Position numbers and translations under genes: made by a program. Source: Rhodoligotrophos defluvii (GTDB lineage: Bacteria; Pseudomonadota; Alphaproteobacteria; Rhizobiales; Im1). Taken from it: 64,000 nucleotides of DNA. Below are positions 6,778-50,108 of this stretch, in pieces. Location of the stretch: contig NZ_SZZM01000009.1 in the NCBI RefSeq assembly GCF_005281615.1, positions 1 through 64,000 on the forward strand. The letters run 5' to 3'. Below the pieces are notes generated by a model. It did not search any database and was not told the DNA's origin. It worked only from the letters and a program-made list of their open reading frames with translations. The first letter of the stretch is position 1; the number at the start of each line of letters is the position of its first letter.

Positions 6778-7599
6778 ATGGCCACCATCCTCGACGAGAT
6801 CGCAGCCTACAAGCGCGAGGAAGTCGCCGCAGCGAAACGGGCAAGGAGTTTCGCCGACCTCGATCGCGAGGCCCGTGCTTGCCCCACACCCCGCGGTTTT
6901 GCCACCGCCCTGCGCGAGAAGCTCGCGGCGGATGCTTACGGTCTCGTCGCCGAGATCAAGAAGGCCAGCCCGTCCAAGGGCCTCATCCGCGCCGATTTCG
7001 ACCCGCCCAGCCTTGCCCGCGCCTACGAGGCGGGCGGTGCCGCCTGCCTCTCCGTGCTCACCGACACACCGTCCTTCCAAGGCCATCCGCGCTTCCTTAC
7101 CGAGGCGCGCAACGCGACTGCCCTGCCCGCCCTGCGCAAGGACTTCATGCTCGATCCCTATCAGGTGGCGGAGGCCCGTGCTTGGGGCGCCGACTGCATC
7201 CTGATCATCATGGCCATGGTGGATAATGCGCTTGCCGCGGAGCTCGAACAGGCCGCCCTAAGCTACGGAATGGATTCACTCATCGAGGTTCATGACGAGG
7301 CCGAGCTCGACCGCGCTCTCGAGCTCTCCTCGACCCTGATCGGCATCAACAACCGCAACCTCAAGACCTTCGACGTGTCGCTCGCCACCACCGAGCGCCT
7401 CACGCCCCGCATCCCCGGCGACCGCCTCGTCATTGCCGAAAGCGGCTTGAGCACGACAGTCGATCTCGCGCGCCTCGCCCGCATTGGCGCCCGCTGCTTC
7501 CTCGTGGGCGAAAGCCTCATGCGCCATGGCGATGTGGCGGCCGCCACCCGGCAGCTTCTCGGCCTTGCACCGGCCCAATCGACCGTGGCTGTGCCATGA
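6778..7599 (+). CDS. trpC: Indole-3-glycerol phosphate synthase
   Basis: Closes the indole ring, converting CdRP to indole-3-glycerol phosphate. 273 residues from the ATG at 6778; the open frame continues upstream inside trpD but has no reason to start there. A TIM-barrel protein with [12 protein letters not shown] (catalytic Lys), [22 protein letters not shown] and VIAESGLS. There is no fused TrpF domain. It starts four bases after the trpD stop and overlaps moaC by 4 bp. Confidence 0.97.
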
Positions 7600-8078
7600 G
7601 CAACCCCCGCCTCACCCATCTCGATGAAAAGGGCGAGGCGCGCATGGTGGACGTGTCCGACAAGGCCGTCACCACCCGTGTTGCGACTGCCGCCGGCAGC
7701 GTGTGGATGAAGCCCGAGACCCTGGACCTGATCCTGTCGGGCGAGATCCAGAAGGGCGATGTGCTCGCCACCGCCCGTATCGCCGGCATCATGGCCGCCA
7801 AGCGCACCCATGAATTGATCCCGCTCTGCCATCCCCTGGCCATCACCAAGGCCGAAGTCACTCTCACGCCCGATAGCAACGCCTCGCGCATCGATGTGAC
7901 TGCCACCGTCAAGGTCGACGGCAAGACAGGCGTGGAAATGGAAGCGCTCACAGCCGTCTCCGTCGCCTGTCTCACCCTTTACGACATGTGCAAGGCGGTG
8001 GACCGCGCCATGCGCATCGGCGACATAAGGGTGGTCGAGAAGACCGGCGGCAAATCCGGCCCCTATCGGGAGGCCTGA
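7596..8078 (+). CDS. moaC: Cyclic pyranopterin monophosphate synthase
   Basis: Completes the first step of molybdenum cofactor synthesis, turning the MoaA product into cPMP. The 160 residues carry the conserved [36 protein letters not shown] and KTGGKSG segments. ATG at 7596 overlaps the trpC stop (ATGA). The trpDC-moaC-moeA order is widespread in alphaproteobacteria and probably reflects one transcript, although the pathways are unrelated. Confidence 0.96.
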
Positions 8079-44095: not shown

Positions 44096-46078
44096 CTAAA
44101 CGGCAGATCCCCCTTGCCGACCCGAAGCCTCCCCGAACCCCTCGATCGCGGCCTCCTCGCCGAATGTCGATCGGAATTGGGCGCTGGCTTCGTTCAACCG
44201 CAGTTCTGTCTCCTCCGTAGGGTTCTCCGCAAAGGCCCGTTCTGCATCCGCTAGCTCTCGACGCAATATACCGGCCTTCCTGTGCAACGCGACCATATGG
44301 AGCCAAGCAACGGACGTATCCTCAGCGGCAGCATCTGGAAACGCAAACCAATCGCTACGATGCGTGAATCCGGACTCGAGCCTTGCGAGGACCTCCGCGT
44401 AACCTCTCGCCGTGAGGTGGTTCCGCAATTCTGTCCTGTCAAGGCCTTCCACCAAAGCGGCGATATCTAGGATTTCGCGGCGCAGCCTGTCAAGAACCGG
44501 GCTTGACAGCTCCAGCTCTGCCACAGCCTCGGGATTCGGCTCGATCAGATACGGGTGGTTGAGAAGCGTGAGCATGATCAGCCGCTCGCGCCGGTCACCG
44601 GCCGCGGCGTCCCCTCCGGTGGCCGCGACACGGGCCCGCAAGGCGGGCGTTGGGCTTGAGGGCAGCAACCAGTGCGGCAGCGGCGCCCGGCCGCGCCGCC
44701 ACTGGTCCACATTGCCCCCGGGATAACGCGCGAGGCTCGAAGGGGCCCCTGCCCCCCGGTAGCCTCGTCCCCGCGGCACGAACGGCTGGCGCCGCCCTCC
44801 CCAAAGGCCGGCTAGCCGTTCGCGGAAATGGCTGCGGTAATGTGCCTTGATTCGCGCATCGCTGATTCGCTCGACCGCCTCGTCCAGCTTCGCCTCGAAG
44901 GCGGCGCGGCGCTCCGGCGTCGTCAGGTCGGCCGCCTCGCTCTCCCGCCGCCACAGCACGTCGGCCATCGGCACCGCCGCCTCGAGCGCGCCCAGCATGG
45001 CCGCGGGGCCGCCATGCCGCACCAGGTCGTCGGGATCCTGCCCCTCCGGCAGGAAGGCAAACCGCAGGGAATAGCCGGGCCGCAGCTCCGGCAGCGCCGT
45101 GTCGAGGGCCCGGTAGGCTGCCTTGAGGCCTGCCTCGTCGCCATCGAAGCACAGCACCGGCTCGGCTGCGGCCTTCCACAGCAGCTTCAGCTGTTCGGCC
45201 GTGAGCGCCGTGCCCATGGGCGCAACCACATGGTCGATGCCGACGCCATCCAGAGCGATGACGTCCATATAGCCCTCGACCACCACGATCGCGCCCGCCT
45301 CGTAGGCGGGCTTCCGTGCCCGGTCGAGATTGTAGAGCATCGCGCTCTTGTGGAAGAGCTCCGTCTCCGGCGAGTTGAGATATTTCGCCTGCGCCGTGGG
45401 CGAAAGCGCGCGGCCGCCGAACGCCACCACCCTGCCCCGCGCATCATTGATGGGAAACATGACGCGGTTGCGGAACCGGTCATAGGGCACGGGGATGTCG
45501 TCGCCGGCAATCAGCAGCCCGGCCTCCACCATCTGCTGGGTCGTGACACCCTTCTCGGCGAGATGGGTCTTGAGTGCATAGCGGTCGTCCGGGGCGAAGC
45601 CCAGGCGGAAGCGCCGCCGCAGGTCCTCCCGCATGCCGCGGCTATCGAGATAGCGGCGGGCCCCCTCGCCGCCCCGCCCGGCCAGCTGCCCCTCGAAGAA
45701 GCGGGCCGCCAGCTCCATCACCTCGATGAGGCTCGTGCGCTTCTCCTCCCGCTGCCGCATCTCGGGCGAGGGTTCGGGCATCGGCAAGCCGGCTTCCGCC
45801 GCCAGCCGCTCGACCGCCTCGGGAAAGCTCAGGCCTTCCTTCTCGGTCAAGAAGGTGAAGATGTCGCCTGAGGCCTTGCAACCGAAGCAGTGGTAGCGAC
45901 CCTTCCGGTCATCCGCATGGAAAGAAGGAGATTTCTCCTGGTGGAAAGGACAGCAGGCCCAATAGTCGCCCCTCTGCGGCATGGACTTGCGCCGGTCCCA
46001 AACGACCTTGCGCCCCACCACCTGGGAAATCGGCACACGCTGGCGGATCTCGTCGAGGAAACTGTCTGAAAACCGCAT
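44096..46078 (-). CDS. dnaG: DNA primase
   Basis: Makes RNA primers for replication. 660 residues from the ATG at 46078 (MRFSDSFLDEIRQRVPIS, the canonical N-terminus). The CHC2 zinc finger has the CPFHxEKSPSF and YHCFGC motifs. The TOPRIM core contains VVVEGYMDVIALD and CFDGDEAGLKAA. The C-terminal helicase-binding region is Arg/Glu-rich and divergent. It lies 187 bp upstream of rpoD on the same strand. Confidence 0.96.
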   Translation of the reverse strand: MRFSDSFLDEIRQRVPISQVVGRKVVWDRRKSMPQRGDYWACCPFHQEKSPSFHADDRKGRYHCFGCKASGDIFTFLTEKEGLSFPEAVERLAAEAGLPMPEPSPEMRQREEKRTSLIEVMELAARFFEGQLAGRGGEGARRYLDSRGMREDLRRRFRLGFAPDDRYALKTHLAEKGVTTQQMVEAGLLIAGDDIPVPYDRFRNRVMFPINDARGRVVAFGGRALSPTAQAKYLNSPETELFHKSAMLYNLDRARKPAYEAGAIVVVEGYMDVIALDGVGIDHVVAPMGTALTAEQLKLLWKAAAEPVLCFDGDEAGLKAAYRALDTALPELRPGYSLRFAFLPEGQDPDDLVRHGGPAAMLGALEAAVPMADVLWRRESEAADLTTPERRAAFEAKLDEAVERISDARIKAHYRSHFRERLAGLWGGRRQPFVPRGRGYRGAGAPSSLARYPGGNVDQWRRGRAPLPHWLLPSSPTPALRARVAATGGDAAAGDRRERLIMLTLLNHPYLIEPNPEAVAELELSSPVLDRLRREILDIAALVEGLDRTELRNHLTARGYAEVLARLESGFTHRSDWFAFPDAAAEDTSVAWLHMVALHRKAGILRRELADAERAFAENPTEETELRLNEASAQFRSTFGEEAAIEGFGEASGRQGGSAV

Positions 46079-46197
46079 GGCACCCGTCCGTCGATCGGCC
46101 AGACTAGCGCAAGCACGCGCCTGTGTCCGGCGCAATCTGGTTAATCGACGGCGAGTGTCGGATCAACGTCCAAGCCCATCTAAGTAGGCCAGCCGTC

Positions 46198-46737
46198 TCA
46201 ATGCATCGAATGAAAGTCCGTAGCTCCCGAAGCATCGGCATGACCGGGATCCGGCGGCCTGTGGAACGGATCTTCCACCGGCACATTCTCGGCCGCCAGC
46301 TTCTCGATCGCCTCGAGCCTGCTCATCGCCGTGCTCACCGCCCCATGGTAGTGATGAAGGCCTTGCACCTGATCGGCACTCTTCCCCTGCAAGAGCGCGG
46401 TCAGCTCGCCGCGAAGCTTCGCGTCAGTATCCTTGATGCTTTCGGTGAGTTGGCGCACTTCGCTGATGGCTTGCCGCTTCACCTCTGCGGCAACCTGTGC
46501 ACCATAAAGCGACATCTCCAGGTCCGGAGCTCGCACCGCCAATGGCTTGGTCGTCTCTTTGAGCTTGCCGACCGTTTCGCTGATGAGCACCCCGCTGGGC
46601 CTGACCCCCATCTCCAATTGCCTGTTGAGAATGGCAATATTGCTGCTCAATTCGTCGAGACGGACGAGATTGGCGGGAAGAATTTCCTTAATCGGCGTTG
46701 AAACCACCTCGCGCGGACCCTCTGGCAATCTTCTCAT
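46198..46737 (-). CDS. Unknown protein with C-terminal DF..MH domain (A)
   Basis: 179 residues, soluble and helical, family not recognised. The ATG at 46737 has GAGG seven bases upstream. The last ~40 residues (from SRLEAIEKLAAENVP to TDFHSMH) align with the C-terminus of the protein at 48870-49406: LE.I...AA, E, H, (D/E)P and a final (S/T)DF(H/N)(S/A)MH. The N-terminal 140 residues differ. The gene interrupts the conserved yqeY-dnaG-rpoD order, which suggests later insertion. A C-terminal sorting or recognition tag is one reading; no function can be given. Confidence 0.7.
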   Translation of the reverse strand: MRRLPEGPREVVSTPIKEILPANLVRLDELSSNIAILNRQLEMGVRPSGVLISETVGKLKETTKPLAVRAPDLEMSLYGAQVAAEVKRQAISEVRQLTESIKDTDAKLRGELTALLQGKSADQVQGLHHYHGAVSTAMSRLEAIEKLAAENVPVEDPFHRPPDPGHADASGATDFHSMH

Positions 46738-46842
46738 CACAATTCCTCAAAAAATGCATTTCCAACAAATAACCTCCAGGCGATGTGGCCTCGATAGCTC
46801 AACTTGGCGGGTATTGCCACTGCCACAAGGCCGAGACGCTCA

Positions 46843-47307
46843 CTACTTCAGCTTCTCCTTGGCGATCGCTCCGGCCTTTGCCACGTCCAGCGCCCCGGCA
46901 TGCCGCGATTTCAGCTCCGCCATGACCCGGCCCATGTCCTTGAGGCCGCTCGCACCAAGCTCGGCGATGATGCCGTCGACGGCGGTCTGCACCTCCGCCT
47001 CGCTCAGTTGCCGCGGCATGAACTCGCGGATGACCGCGATTTCCTCCCGCTCCTGCTCCGCGAGCTCCAGCCGGCCGGCCTGCTCGTAGACCTGCTGTGA
47101 TTCCTCCCGTTGCTTGATCATGCGGGCGAGAATGTCCAGGAGCTCCGCGTCATCGAGCTCATCGCCCTTGCCGGCCCCGCGGTTGTGGATGATCCGGTCC
47201 TTCACCGCGGCATTGATCAGGCGCAGCGTCGATATGCGGCGCTTGTCCTGTGACTTCATCGCCGCCTTCAAGCCCTCATTGACCCGCTCGCGGATGGTCG
47301 CGCTCAT
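46843..47307 (-). CDS. GatB/YqeY domain protein
   Basis: 154 residues, YqeY family: helical protein related to the tail domain of the GatB amidotransferase. Recognised by STLRLINAAVKDR, LLDILARMIKQREES, FMPRQLSEAEV and MGRVMAELKSRHAGALD. The start is placed at the ATG at 47307 with GGAGAC upstream; the frame extends seven codons further. Precise role unknown, but its place beside dnaG/rpoD and carA is conserved in alphaproteobacteria. Confidence 0.9.
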   Translation of the reverse strand: MSATIRERVNEGLKAAMKSQDKRRISTLRLINAAVKDRIIHNRGAGKGDELDDAELLDILARMIKQREESQQVYEQAGRLELAEQEREEIAVIREFMPRQLSEAEVQTAVDGIIAELGASGLKDMGRVMAELKSRHAGALDVAKAGAIAKEKLK

Positions 47308-47518
47308 TGATCTCGTCTCCATTTGCAATGAGAGGCAATAGCCATGCCTATATCAGGCCCCGGGCGGCAGACGCCACCCCATTTGCCGCACCTCGCCTAT
47401 TGACCTCCGTTGTCCCGTCCCATACGTAACGCCCAATTACCCATGGCGCGACCCGCTCGCCGGCTTGCCCGGCCCCGAGCCCGCGCGTCGCCGCCAGGCC
47501 TCTCCGAGGGAGATACCC

Positions 47519-48784
47519 ATGTCGACCCCTTCCCAAACCGATCCGGCCCTGGGGCCGGAGGAATCGTCCACGGCTGCCGGCGAGCGGCTCCGTCGGGCAG
47601 GCGCTCTCGGCGGCTGGACCGTCCCGAAGCCGACAGCCCTCCTCGTCCTGGCTGACGGCACGGTCATCGAAGGGTTCGGCATCGGTGCTGAGGGCTCAGC
47701 GGTTGGCGAAGTATGCTTCAACACGGCCATCACCGGCTATCAGGAGATTCTCACCGATCCCTCCTATGCCGGCCAGATCATCGCTTTTACCTTTCCTCAT
47801 ATCGGCAATGTGGGGGCCAATGACGAGGATATCGAGACGGCCAATCTCGCGTCCTCCCATGTGCGCGGCTGCGTGCTGAAGACGGCGATCACCGAGCCTT
47901 CGAATTACCGGGCCCAGCGCCATTTCGACCATTGGCTCAAGGTGCGCGGCATCATCGGCATCAGCGGTGTCGACACCCGCGCGCTGACCGGCCTGATCCG
48001 CGACCGCGGCTTCGTCAATGCCGTGATCGCCCACAATGCCCGCGGCGCGTTCGACATCGATGCCTTGAAGCAGGAGGCGGCCGCGTGGCCCGGGCTCGAG
48101 GGCATGGACCTGGTGCCGGAGGTCTCGGCCACGCAGCGCTACGACTGGGACGAGACCCTCTGGCAGTGGCCCGAGGGCTTCGGCCGCCAGGAACAACCGC
48201 GCTACCACGTCGTTGCGGTCGACTACGGGCTGAAACGCAATATTCTGCGCTGCCTCGCGAGCCAGGGGTGCAAGGTCACGGTGGTGCCGGCCACCAGCGC
48301 CGCGGAAGACATCCTCGCCCTCGACCCCGACGGGGTCTTCCTCTCGAACGGCCCTGGCGATCCTGCCGCCACTGGCCAATATGCCGTCCCGGAGATCCGG
48401 AAGCTCATCTCGTCAGGCAAGCCGGTGTTCGGCATCTGCCTTGGCCACCAGATGCTGGCTTTGGCCGTCGGCGCGAAGACACGCAAGATGCACCAGGGCC
48501 ATCATGGCGCCAACCATCCGGTCAAGGATCACACCACCGGCAAGGTGGAGATCACCTCCATGAACCACGGCTTCACCGTGGATCGCGAGTCATTGCCGGA
48601 AGATGTTGAAGAGACTCACGTTTCCCTGTTCGACGGCACCAATTGCGGTATCGCCCTGAAGGACAAGCCGGTGTTTTCGGTGCAATACCATCCCGAGGCC
48701 TCCCCGGGGCCGCAGGACAGTCACTACCTCTTCAAGCGCTTCATCGACCTGATCGAGCGCAAGAAGCAGGGTGATACGACGTAA
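47519..48784 (+). CDS. carA: Carbamoyl-phosphate synthase small subunit
   Basis: Glutaminase subunit feeding ammonia to CarB for arginine and pyrimidine synthesis. 421 residues; the N-terminal CPSase domain (ALLVLADGTVIEGFGIG, CFNTAITGYQEILTDPSY, NVGANDEDIE) is followed by a class I amidotransferase domain with nucleophile Cys in GICLGHQM and the His-Glu pair in QYHPEASPGP. The ATG at 47519 follows GAGGGAGA. About 30 extra residues precede the usual start of the CPSase domain. It diverges from yqeY; the 47308-47518 gap holds both promoters. Confidence 0.96.
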   Translation: MSTPSQTDPALGPEESSTAAGERLRRAGALGGWTVPKPTALLVLADGTVIEGFGIGAEGSAVGEVCFNTAITGYQEILTDPSYAGQIIAFTFPHIGNVGANDEDIETANLASSHVRGCVLKTAITEPSNYRAQRHFDHWLKVRGIIGISGVDTRALTGLIRDRGFVNAVIAHNARGAFDIDALKQEAAAWPGLEGMDLVPEVSATQRYDWDETLWQWPEGFGRQEQPRYHVVAVDYGLKRNILRCLASQGCKVTVVPATSAAEDILALDPDGVFLSNGPGDPAATGQYAVPEIRKLISSGKPVFGICLGHQMLALAVGAKTRKMHQGHHGANHPVKDHTTGKVEITSMNHGFTVDRESLPEDVEETHVSLFDGTNCGIALKDKPVFSVQYHPEASPGPQDSHYLFKRFIDLIERKKQGDTT

Positions 48785-48869
48785 CCGTTTTCGGCAGGGC
48801 TTCTCCCTCGAAGCTGACCTTCACCGAACCGGCCTGCGGGAACCTTCGCGGAATCAATCTCGCAAGATT

Positions 48870-49406
48870 TCAGTGCATCGCATTGAAATCGCTTGGCTGC
48901 GGTCCGGCATGAGATGCCGGCTCAACGCCGAAATGATTTCCTCCAGCCTCTCCCCAATACCGGTCGGCGGCCTCGTAGCCGATCATTTCCAAATGCACCA
49001 ACCCTCGGTCCACGTGCTGTCGCAGCTCGGTTGCGAGGGCGTTGACGCGCTCGATCCAACCAGGCGCCCGATTATGCAGTTCGAGGTTCAGGGCATCGGC
49101 CAAGCCCAAACCTGCTTGCTTGATATTCCATATCTGGTTCAGCAGATGTGAGTTTGGGTCAGCATCATGGATGCTGTTGCCCAGATAGATTGCCGGCTTT
49201 GACCAGTGGCGTTTGAACTCACTTATCTCATTCGACAGATAGCTGAGATCTGAAGGTCTCAACGGGCCCGCAATTCGAGCGATGTCTTGATCTCTGAGCA
49301 GGCCGATGGCGTCCACGCCCGTCTCAATTCCAAACACGCTACCGTCAACAAACTTCCTGAACTCTCCCAAATCTTTTGAAAAATTTTCTATAAATCCAGA
49401 AGGCAT
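48870..49406 (-). CDS. Unknown protein with C-terminal DF..MH domain (B)
   Basis: 178 residues, soluble, family not recognised. The ATG at 49406 has GGGAG seven bases upstream; the ATG at 49424 lacks a ribosome site. The last ~40 residues (from HLEMIGYEAADRYW to SDFNAMH) match the C-terminus of the protein at 46198-46737, and the lengths are nearly equal. The codons for the shared end differ at silent sites, so this is not a recent copy. AT-rich upstream DNA and insertion between carA and carB suggest transfer. No signal peptide. Confidence 0.7.
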   Translation of the reverse strand: MPSGFIENFSKDLGEFRKFVDGSVFGIETGVDAIGLLRDQDIARIAGPLRPSDLSYLSNEISEFKRHWSKPAIYLGNSIHDADPNSHLLNQIWNIKQAGLGLADALNLELHNRAPGWIERVNALATELRQHVDRGLVHLEMIGYEAADRYWGEAGGNHFGVEPASHAGPQPSDFNAMH

Positions 49407-49443
49407 TTTAAGTCTCCCAAGCATATAAAAATAAACACGTTGG

Positions 49444-49877: not shown

Positions 49878-50108
49878 ATGACGGGACGTTTTATCATGGC
49901 AATGCTGGTCGCTGCGGGGCTGGTTAGCGGCCTGGCAACGGCGGTGACACCGTCGGCGGTCGAATCTGCTCAGCCGAAGATCGCTGCGAGCCCAGTGGCA
50001 TCGGCTCACTCGGGCCGCAATGTCACGGCCATCAAGAATCAAGCATGGCCCCCGGCCGCAATGATCACGGTCGAGCCCTGCGCGATCGCGGAATGCCGCG
50101 ACGCCTAA
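49878..50108 (+). CDS. Small secreted protein, unknown
   Basis: 76 residues with a signal peptide (about 1-30: MTGRFIMAMLVAAGLVSGLATA). The mature part is short, with two Cys near the end (EPCAIAECRDA) that could form a disulfide. The ATG at 49878 follows GGGAG. A strong hairpin terminator lies 18 bp downstream, which supports a real transcription unit. Confidence 0.6.
   Translation: MTGRFIMAMLVAAGLVSGLATAVTPSAVESAQPKIAASPVASAHSGRNVTAIKNQAWPPAAMITVEPCAIAECRDA

Follow-up and report, generated by a model that had tools for sequence, protein, structure and literature searches.

The 64,000-nucleotide stretch of Rhodoligotrophos defluvii DNA analysed here, referred to as the window, contains two minus-strand genes, designated A and B, whose products end in closely similar peptides. 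An earlier examination of the window (the original prediction) had proposed that this common end is a module for targeting, secretion or partner recognition carried by otherwise different proteins. The parent genome, G000, comprises 5.49 Mb in 20 contigs; its two proteins are written A0 and B0 where they are compared with A1, B1, C1 and D1 of a congener, G001. The genes and their tails are:

46198..46737, minus strand: protein A, an orphan of 179 residues between yqeY and dnaG (open reading frame (ORF), Shine-Dalgarno-like GAGGA upstream, orthologue in G001)
46198..46221, minus strand: the tail of A, TDFHSMH and the stop codon, at the end of the ORF
48870..49406, minus strand: protein B, an orphan of 178 residues between carA and carB (ORF, orthologue in G001)
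48870..48893, minus strand: the tail of B, SDFNAMH and the stop codon, at the end of the ORF

The terminal peptide of A and B

Judged by their sequences, A and B are genuine genes, because Shine-Dalgarno-like sequences precede both and because, in comparison with the G001 orthologues, no other of the six frames is as well conserved as the sense frame, and codon position 3 is the least conserved. The frame of B extends from its first ATG at 49424 (184 residues), while an inner ATG at 49406 gives 178 residues; the latter start is favoured, since it is preceded by the Shine-Dalgarno-like GGGAG and aligns with the start of the G001 orthologue. The strand, positions, upstream sequences and ends (ATDFHSMH for A and PSDFNAMH for B) described in the original prediction were all recovered.

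The residues D, F, M and H are common to the two ends and lie at the same distances from the C-terminus. The tail pair had a score of 28, which exceeded column shuffles (p=1.6e-5), the comparison that had been suggested as a check on the match. As a background of real sequences, 796 ORFs were collapsed into 249 BLASTP clusters and the two clusters containing tails under test were dropped; among the 30,381 pairs of C-termini from the remaining 247, all unrelated by BLASTP, one reached the A0-B0 score and 15 had at least four of the last six residues in common. Two other backgrounds were discarded: 1) a set of 570 C-termini, in which homologous C-termini were repeated across loci, and 2) the real-pair count after collapsing 748 C-termini to 218, an unfair control because the tails with at least four common positions that had been removed were exactly the kind under test. 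The column shuffle on the latter set is still valid.

Taken alone, the A/B match is no more than suggestive. It is weakened because the pair was chosen by the earlier reader from about 55 window genes, or some 1,500 pairs, among which chance alone would give 0.05-0.1 matches of this kind; what makes the tail convincing is the evidence from G001. The statement that silent positions differ was correct, in that three of the four common residues (D, F and H) use different synonymous codons in A and B, the fourth being Met.

The original prediction had placed the terminal residues in a common domain of about 40 residues containing LE.I...AA. BLASTP aligned A and B with 29% identity over 52 columns, 12 of them gapped (E=0.051), and profile comparison gave no match between them (probability 0.2%). 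The LE.I...AA residues were missing in the A orthologue of G001 and partly kept in that of B. The similarity holds for the last six to eight residues and not for a 40-residue domain.

Orthologues and a third protein in the congener

The G001 orthologues occupy the same syntenic places as A and B. A1 (E 4e-20, 36% identity) ends in GDFLDMR and B1 (E 2e-33, 40% identity) in SDLGGMH. A third protein, C1, is encoded in the gap that holds A1, between yqeY and A1, and ends in GDFHVTR; C was searched for in four genomes, and in the three other than G001 there were no relatives better than E 0.2 (best 0.24). The tail recurs in both orthologues and in a third gene, always at the extreme C-terminus. Between non-orthologous proteins, the tail scores of A0-B1, A1-C1, A1-B1 and A0-C1 were equalled by 13, 20, 32 and 47 of the 30,381 background pairs, respectively, with column-shuffle p values of 3e-4, 4e-4, 0.001 and 0.0016. 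The corresponding background counts for the orthologue pairs were 8 (B0-B1) and 157 (A0-A1).

Two further observations were made on orphan ORFs of G001. Between C1 and A1 (locus L011, 12982-13332, plus strand) lies D1, a product of 116 residues, many of them Gly, His or aromatic, that ends in YDFAHLWGSH; this end falls outside the tail pattern, yet the B1-D1 score was matched by just 109 of the 30,381 pairs. At another locus (L027), the plus-strand orphan ORFs Y (720-1097) and X (1030-1521) overlap, look helical and adjoin genes that by eye resemble those of the ATP synthase b subunit. X, of 163 residues, ends in NDLLNMQ, which may be the tail in a loose form, and its best match in G000 had an E value of 0.42, while the alignment score of Y with B was oddly high (0 of 300 shuffles as high).

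The G001 ends bear on whether the similarity could be an accident at the level of DNA, through gene conversion, a repeated element shared by the 3' ends, or chance. The two 21-bp gene ends in the window have 16 bases in common, and a DNA pattern built from both has two occurrences in the window where 0.02 would be expected, although as a test this is circular. In addition, the 3' end of B sits inside a palindrome (48866-48890) with perfect 7-bp arms, GATTTCA/TGAAATC, that spans the stop codon, and the chance expectation among window pairs given above is small but not zero. Nevertheless, no third copy of the pattern was present in the window at up to three mismatches, and in the congener the ends of A, B and C retain the peptide pattern although their codons differ. 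Because the codons differ and the x positions of the motif vary, it is the peptide rather than the DNA that is conserved, and an accident of this kind is quite improbable.

Distribution of the proteins and of the tail

Relatives of A and B were found in G001 alone, one of the two congeners (the other is G002), both among 61 genomes and among 397 genomes of the order, the parent genome being counted. There were none in viral contigs and, at the protein level, none in plasmids and phages. A scan of genome contigs with the B alignment returned 235 pattern stretches, none of which was confirmed, in a collection from which the parent and very near genomes may be missing. The equivalent scan of named-genome contigs used yqeY rather than A as the query; 329 of 453 stretches were relatives and the best 80 were kept.

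Several patterns were used to look for further carriers of the tail. The strict form, DFxxMH, gave six hits in the 61 genomes: A and B, three that end in TGG and are thus not followed by a stop, and one in G023 that ends in TAG at a position where no ORF of at least 20 residues terminates. A relaxed pattern, D[FL]xx[M/T]-[H/R/Q], gave 21 hits in four genomes. The five in G000 comprise A, B and three hits ending in TGG. Five of the seven in G001 have a real stop, namely A1, B1, X and ORFs of 54 and 144 residues that by eye appear not to be genes. A real stop is present in two of seven in G002 (one a 38-residue ORF, the other without an ORF) and in one of two in G003, again without an ORF. The pattern DFxxx[H/R] followed by a TRA stop gave 22 hits in three genomes. 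The five in G000 are A, B, the reverse reading of the B palindrome and two without an ORF of at least 20 residues; one of the eight in G001 is A1, and three more coincide with the ends of ORFs of 22, 41 and 254 residues, the longest of which resembles an enoyl-CoA hydratase by eye. TAG stops and some codons fell outside the patterns, and C1 was missed by both relaxed ones, so a tail that uses different codons or residues could also have escaped in the parent genome. Finally, none of 4993 mechanical six-frame ORFs of at least 60 residues in 80 named loci ended in D[FLYIMVW]..[MT][HRK].

With the patterns tried, no carrier beyond A and B was found in the parent genome, a result that counts against the original prediction, which had named such an outcome as a refutation. 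The tail is rare elsewhere. What stands is the terminal peptide of six to eight residues, mainly through the congener; the 40-residue domain and a genome-wide family do not. A DFxxM-like tail was not met in the papers retrieved from the open-licence literature, and it may have been described elsewhere.

Properties of the proteins

Between G000 and G001, A and B are 36% and 40% identical, compared with 79% for DnaG, 87% for CarA, 88-90% for YqeY, 93% for CarB and 96% for RpoD. The best reading of the sequences is that A and B are fast-evolving, lineage-restricted orphans. No Pfam family matched A, B or six congener proteins above the cut-off (best for A, E 0.23, below the cut-off), no NCBIfam model matched A or B, and no PHROG match was significant for any of these eight orphans (best E 0.012, in a collection that has no curated cut-off). 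Single-sequence models of A and B were mostly helical and of low confidence, with a mean predicted local distance difference test score (pLDDT) of 62.8 for A and 40.7 for B. In the A model, the last 20 or so residues (159-179) had a pLDDT below 50, and A probably consists of helices followed by a disordered C-terminal linker. The linker before the tail is poorly conserved, and in A and B it has a high content of Gly, Ser, Pro and His.

No cysteine occurs in the 1572 residues of the eight orphans at these loci (nominal probability 8e-6), the comparison set being ten hand-picked window proteins, two of them also without cysteine, that together have 39 in 5225 residues. The lack of cysteine is a hint only.

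The tail region contains three to five His residues within the last 30 in A, B and their orthologues, and three of the five tails end in Met-His. A His-rich, metal-binding tail of cytoplasmic proteins, for example in nickel or copper handling, could account for this composition. Most of these His residues are not conserved between orthologues, however, and A1 and C1 end in Arg, which makes such a role very improbable.

A serious rival to a separable tag is old paralogy: A, B and C would be ancient tandem paralogues that have diverged past recognition, and the tail the most constrained remnant of a single fold. The genes are close together, A and B are similar in length, cysteine-free and modelled as helical, albeit with low confidence, and third-position G+C in A, B and C of the two genomes is 0.57-0.69 against 0.72-0.87 in the five neighbouring genes measured. 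The local alignments were also slightly above shuffles, which scored as high in 3 of 300 cases for A0-B0 and 1 of 300 for A0-C1. Against this, when the last ten residues were removed, these counts rose to 8 and 7 of 300, which is unremarkable among 45 pairs, and the A-B, A-C and B-C profile comparisons were null (probability 0.1-0.3%), although such tests are weak for short, fast-evolving sequences. Common descent with one constrained end is quite possible, if tentatively held.

Genomic neighbourhood

The conserved genes flanking A and B, named from the original prediction and by eye, with conservation tested, include:

44096..46099, minus strand: dnaG, 79% identical in G001
46843..47310, minus strand: yqeY, the synteny anchor, 88-90% identical in G001, 73% in G002 and 60% in G003
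47519..48784, plus strand: carA, 87% identical in G001

Conservation of carA, yqeY, dnaG and rpoD extends to G001, G002 and G003, and that of carB to G001 and G002. It had been claimed that A and B are inserted into a normally conserved block. This is true of the window, whereas the yqeY-dnaG gap is variable in general. The best 80 of the 329 YqeY relatives in named genomes (loci L038-L117) were mostly from Hyphomicrobiales and 52-61% identical; the yqeY-dnaG gap measured 5-3706 bp in the 69 of these 80 loci where both genes were found, and 135 bp in G003. The yqeY-carA gap was 159-392 bp in 78 of the 79 loci where both were found, and 643 bp in one. Because its length varies so widely, the yqeY-dnaG site looks insertion-prone, while the yqeY-carA interval is tight.

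In G002, the yqeY-dnaG gap carries two cysteine-free orphans on the minus strand, E (L016, 6167-6943, 258 residues, ending in EFVG) and F (7078-7881, 267 residues, ending in MIMG). They may be related to one another, as none of 300 shuffles scored as high, and 2 of 300 did without the last ten residues. No B beside carA appeared in the ORF listing of G002. A small plus-strand protein of 76 residues in the window (49878-50108) has a signal-peptide-like start and ends in WPPAAMITVEPCAIAECRDA; similar small proteins occur between carA and carB in G001 and G002.

Discussion

The reading that we prefer, with a probability of roughly 0.42, is that A and B, together with C in the congener, form a lineage-restricted set with a common C-terminal tag that would dock to one partner. 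The tail has the look of a docking tag because a short free C-terminus has been kept, the linker before it is poorly conserved and the bodies have nothing detectable in common; its persistence while the bodies diverged (A 36% and B 40% identity) was counted in the same direction. The low pLDDT at the end of A, the zero count in the 80 named loci and the lack of cysteine in the eight orphans were taken as further points in favour. The proposed arrangement is that A, B and C work as a set through this one tag. In each protein the body, a putative helical bundle, would be joined by the flexible linker to the terminal peptide [STG]-D-[FL]-x-x-[MT]-[HR]-COOH, and the free C-terminus would be bound by the common partner, which may sort or assemble the different bodies together in the manner of the CagH/CagI/CagL hexapeptide or of encapsulin cargo peptides. 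A partner-recognition or targeting tail on different bodies, as originally envisaged, is still the best reading in view of the G001 orthologues and the third gene, with a linear motif of six to eight residues in place of the 40-residue domain.

Several observations, besides the selection of the A/B pair among window pairs and the failure to find a third carrier in the parent genome, weigh against a docking tag: 1) the evidence consists of five tails in all, from two genomes, 2) the B1-C1 tails match no better than chance (5796 of 30,381) and the B0-A1 and B0-C1 matches are weak (327 of 30,381 each), 3) the last six residues are identical at three of six positions in both the A and B orthologue pairs, moderately above the bodies, 4) the E and F orphans of G002 occupy the same gap without the tail, and 5) the probability of finding no cysteine is 0.07 for A and B alone, and the G001 orphans X and Y have one cysteine each.

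Terminal docking peptides on flexible linkers have a precedent in the C-terminal pentapeptide of chemoreceptors. Unlike these, A and B had no match to any chemoreceptor family in Pfam or NCBIfam.

The best published parallel met is the terminal hexapeptide common to CagH, CagI and CagL of the Helicobacter pylori cag system, which is reported (PMC3164655) to be encoded by divergent DNA and to be absent from all other proteins of the strain. Without it, according to that study, the system does not function and CagH and CagI do not localise fully to the membrane. The A/B tail is similarly confined to few proteins of one strain (two in the parent genome, three in the congener) with divergent DNA. 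There are also differences. The Cag proteins are encoded in a type IV secretion island, whereas the neighbours of A and B in the window appear by eye to be housekeeping genes and no secretion genes were recognised among them; CagI and CagL have predicted signal peptides, while none was apparent by eye in A and B; and CagH and CagL have a wider C-terminal similarity.

Encapsulins provide a second parallel, in which a short C-terminal peptide on different cargo proteins binds one partner (PMC7355545). The resemblance lies in the short C-terminal peptide on different proteins. Cargo and shell genes are described there as forming a putative operon. Reading the window ORF list by eye revealed no recognisable shell gene, neither the neighbours nor the genome having been searched with profiles.

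Alternatively, the tail could act as an export signal like those at the C-terminus of type I secretion substrates, A, B and C then being exported. Such signals, as in RTX proteins, are C-terminal and uncleaved, and the A/B tail shares this position; no N-terminal signal was apparent by eye and the proteins lack cysteine. In a study of RTX substrates (PMC8861453), their last two positions are enriched for [FLI][VAI] and depleted of E, K, R and P, an enrichment rather than an absolute rule. The tails end instead in MH, MH, MR, MH and TR, and because the typical ending is absent type I secretion is less likely. Moreover, no RTX-type Pfam family matched A, B, A1, B1 or C1, no GGxGxD repeats were seen by eye and visual inspection of the ORFs listed for the window revealed no type I exporter, the genome not having been searched for one. 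Export by this route is improbable, and no result specifically supports the secretion or polar localisation that had been suggested. Any location of A, B or C outside the cytoplasm can for now only be inferred.

The orphan set formed by A, B and C is unusual but small, and its function is likewise inferred only. A broader form of the docking-tag reading is a genus-specific system of tags and partners, in which fast-changing helical proteins encoded between housekeeping genes would be gathered by an undescribed export or assembly machine via [STG]D[FL]xx[MT][HR], while in further congeners, G002 with its E and F being an example, another tag would be employed at that site; in this extended form the proposal is doubtful. 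Where a short C-terminal tag brings different proteins to one machine, the tag can point the way to that machine. If the tail of A, B and C acts as a signal of this kind, it would be a direct bait for its partner and would account for one group of orphan genes that are lineage-restricted and lack a recognisable domain.

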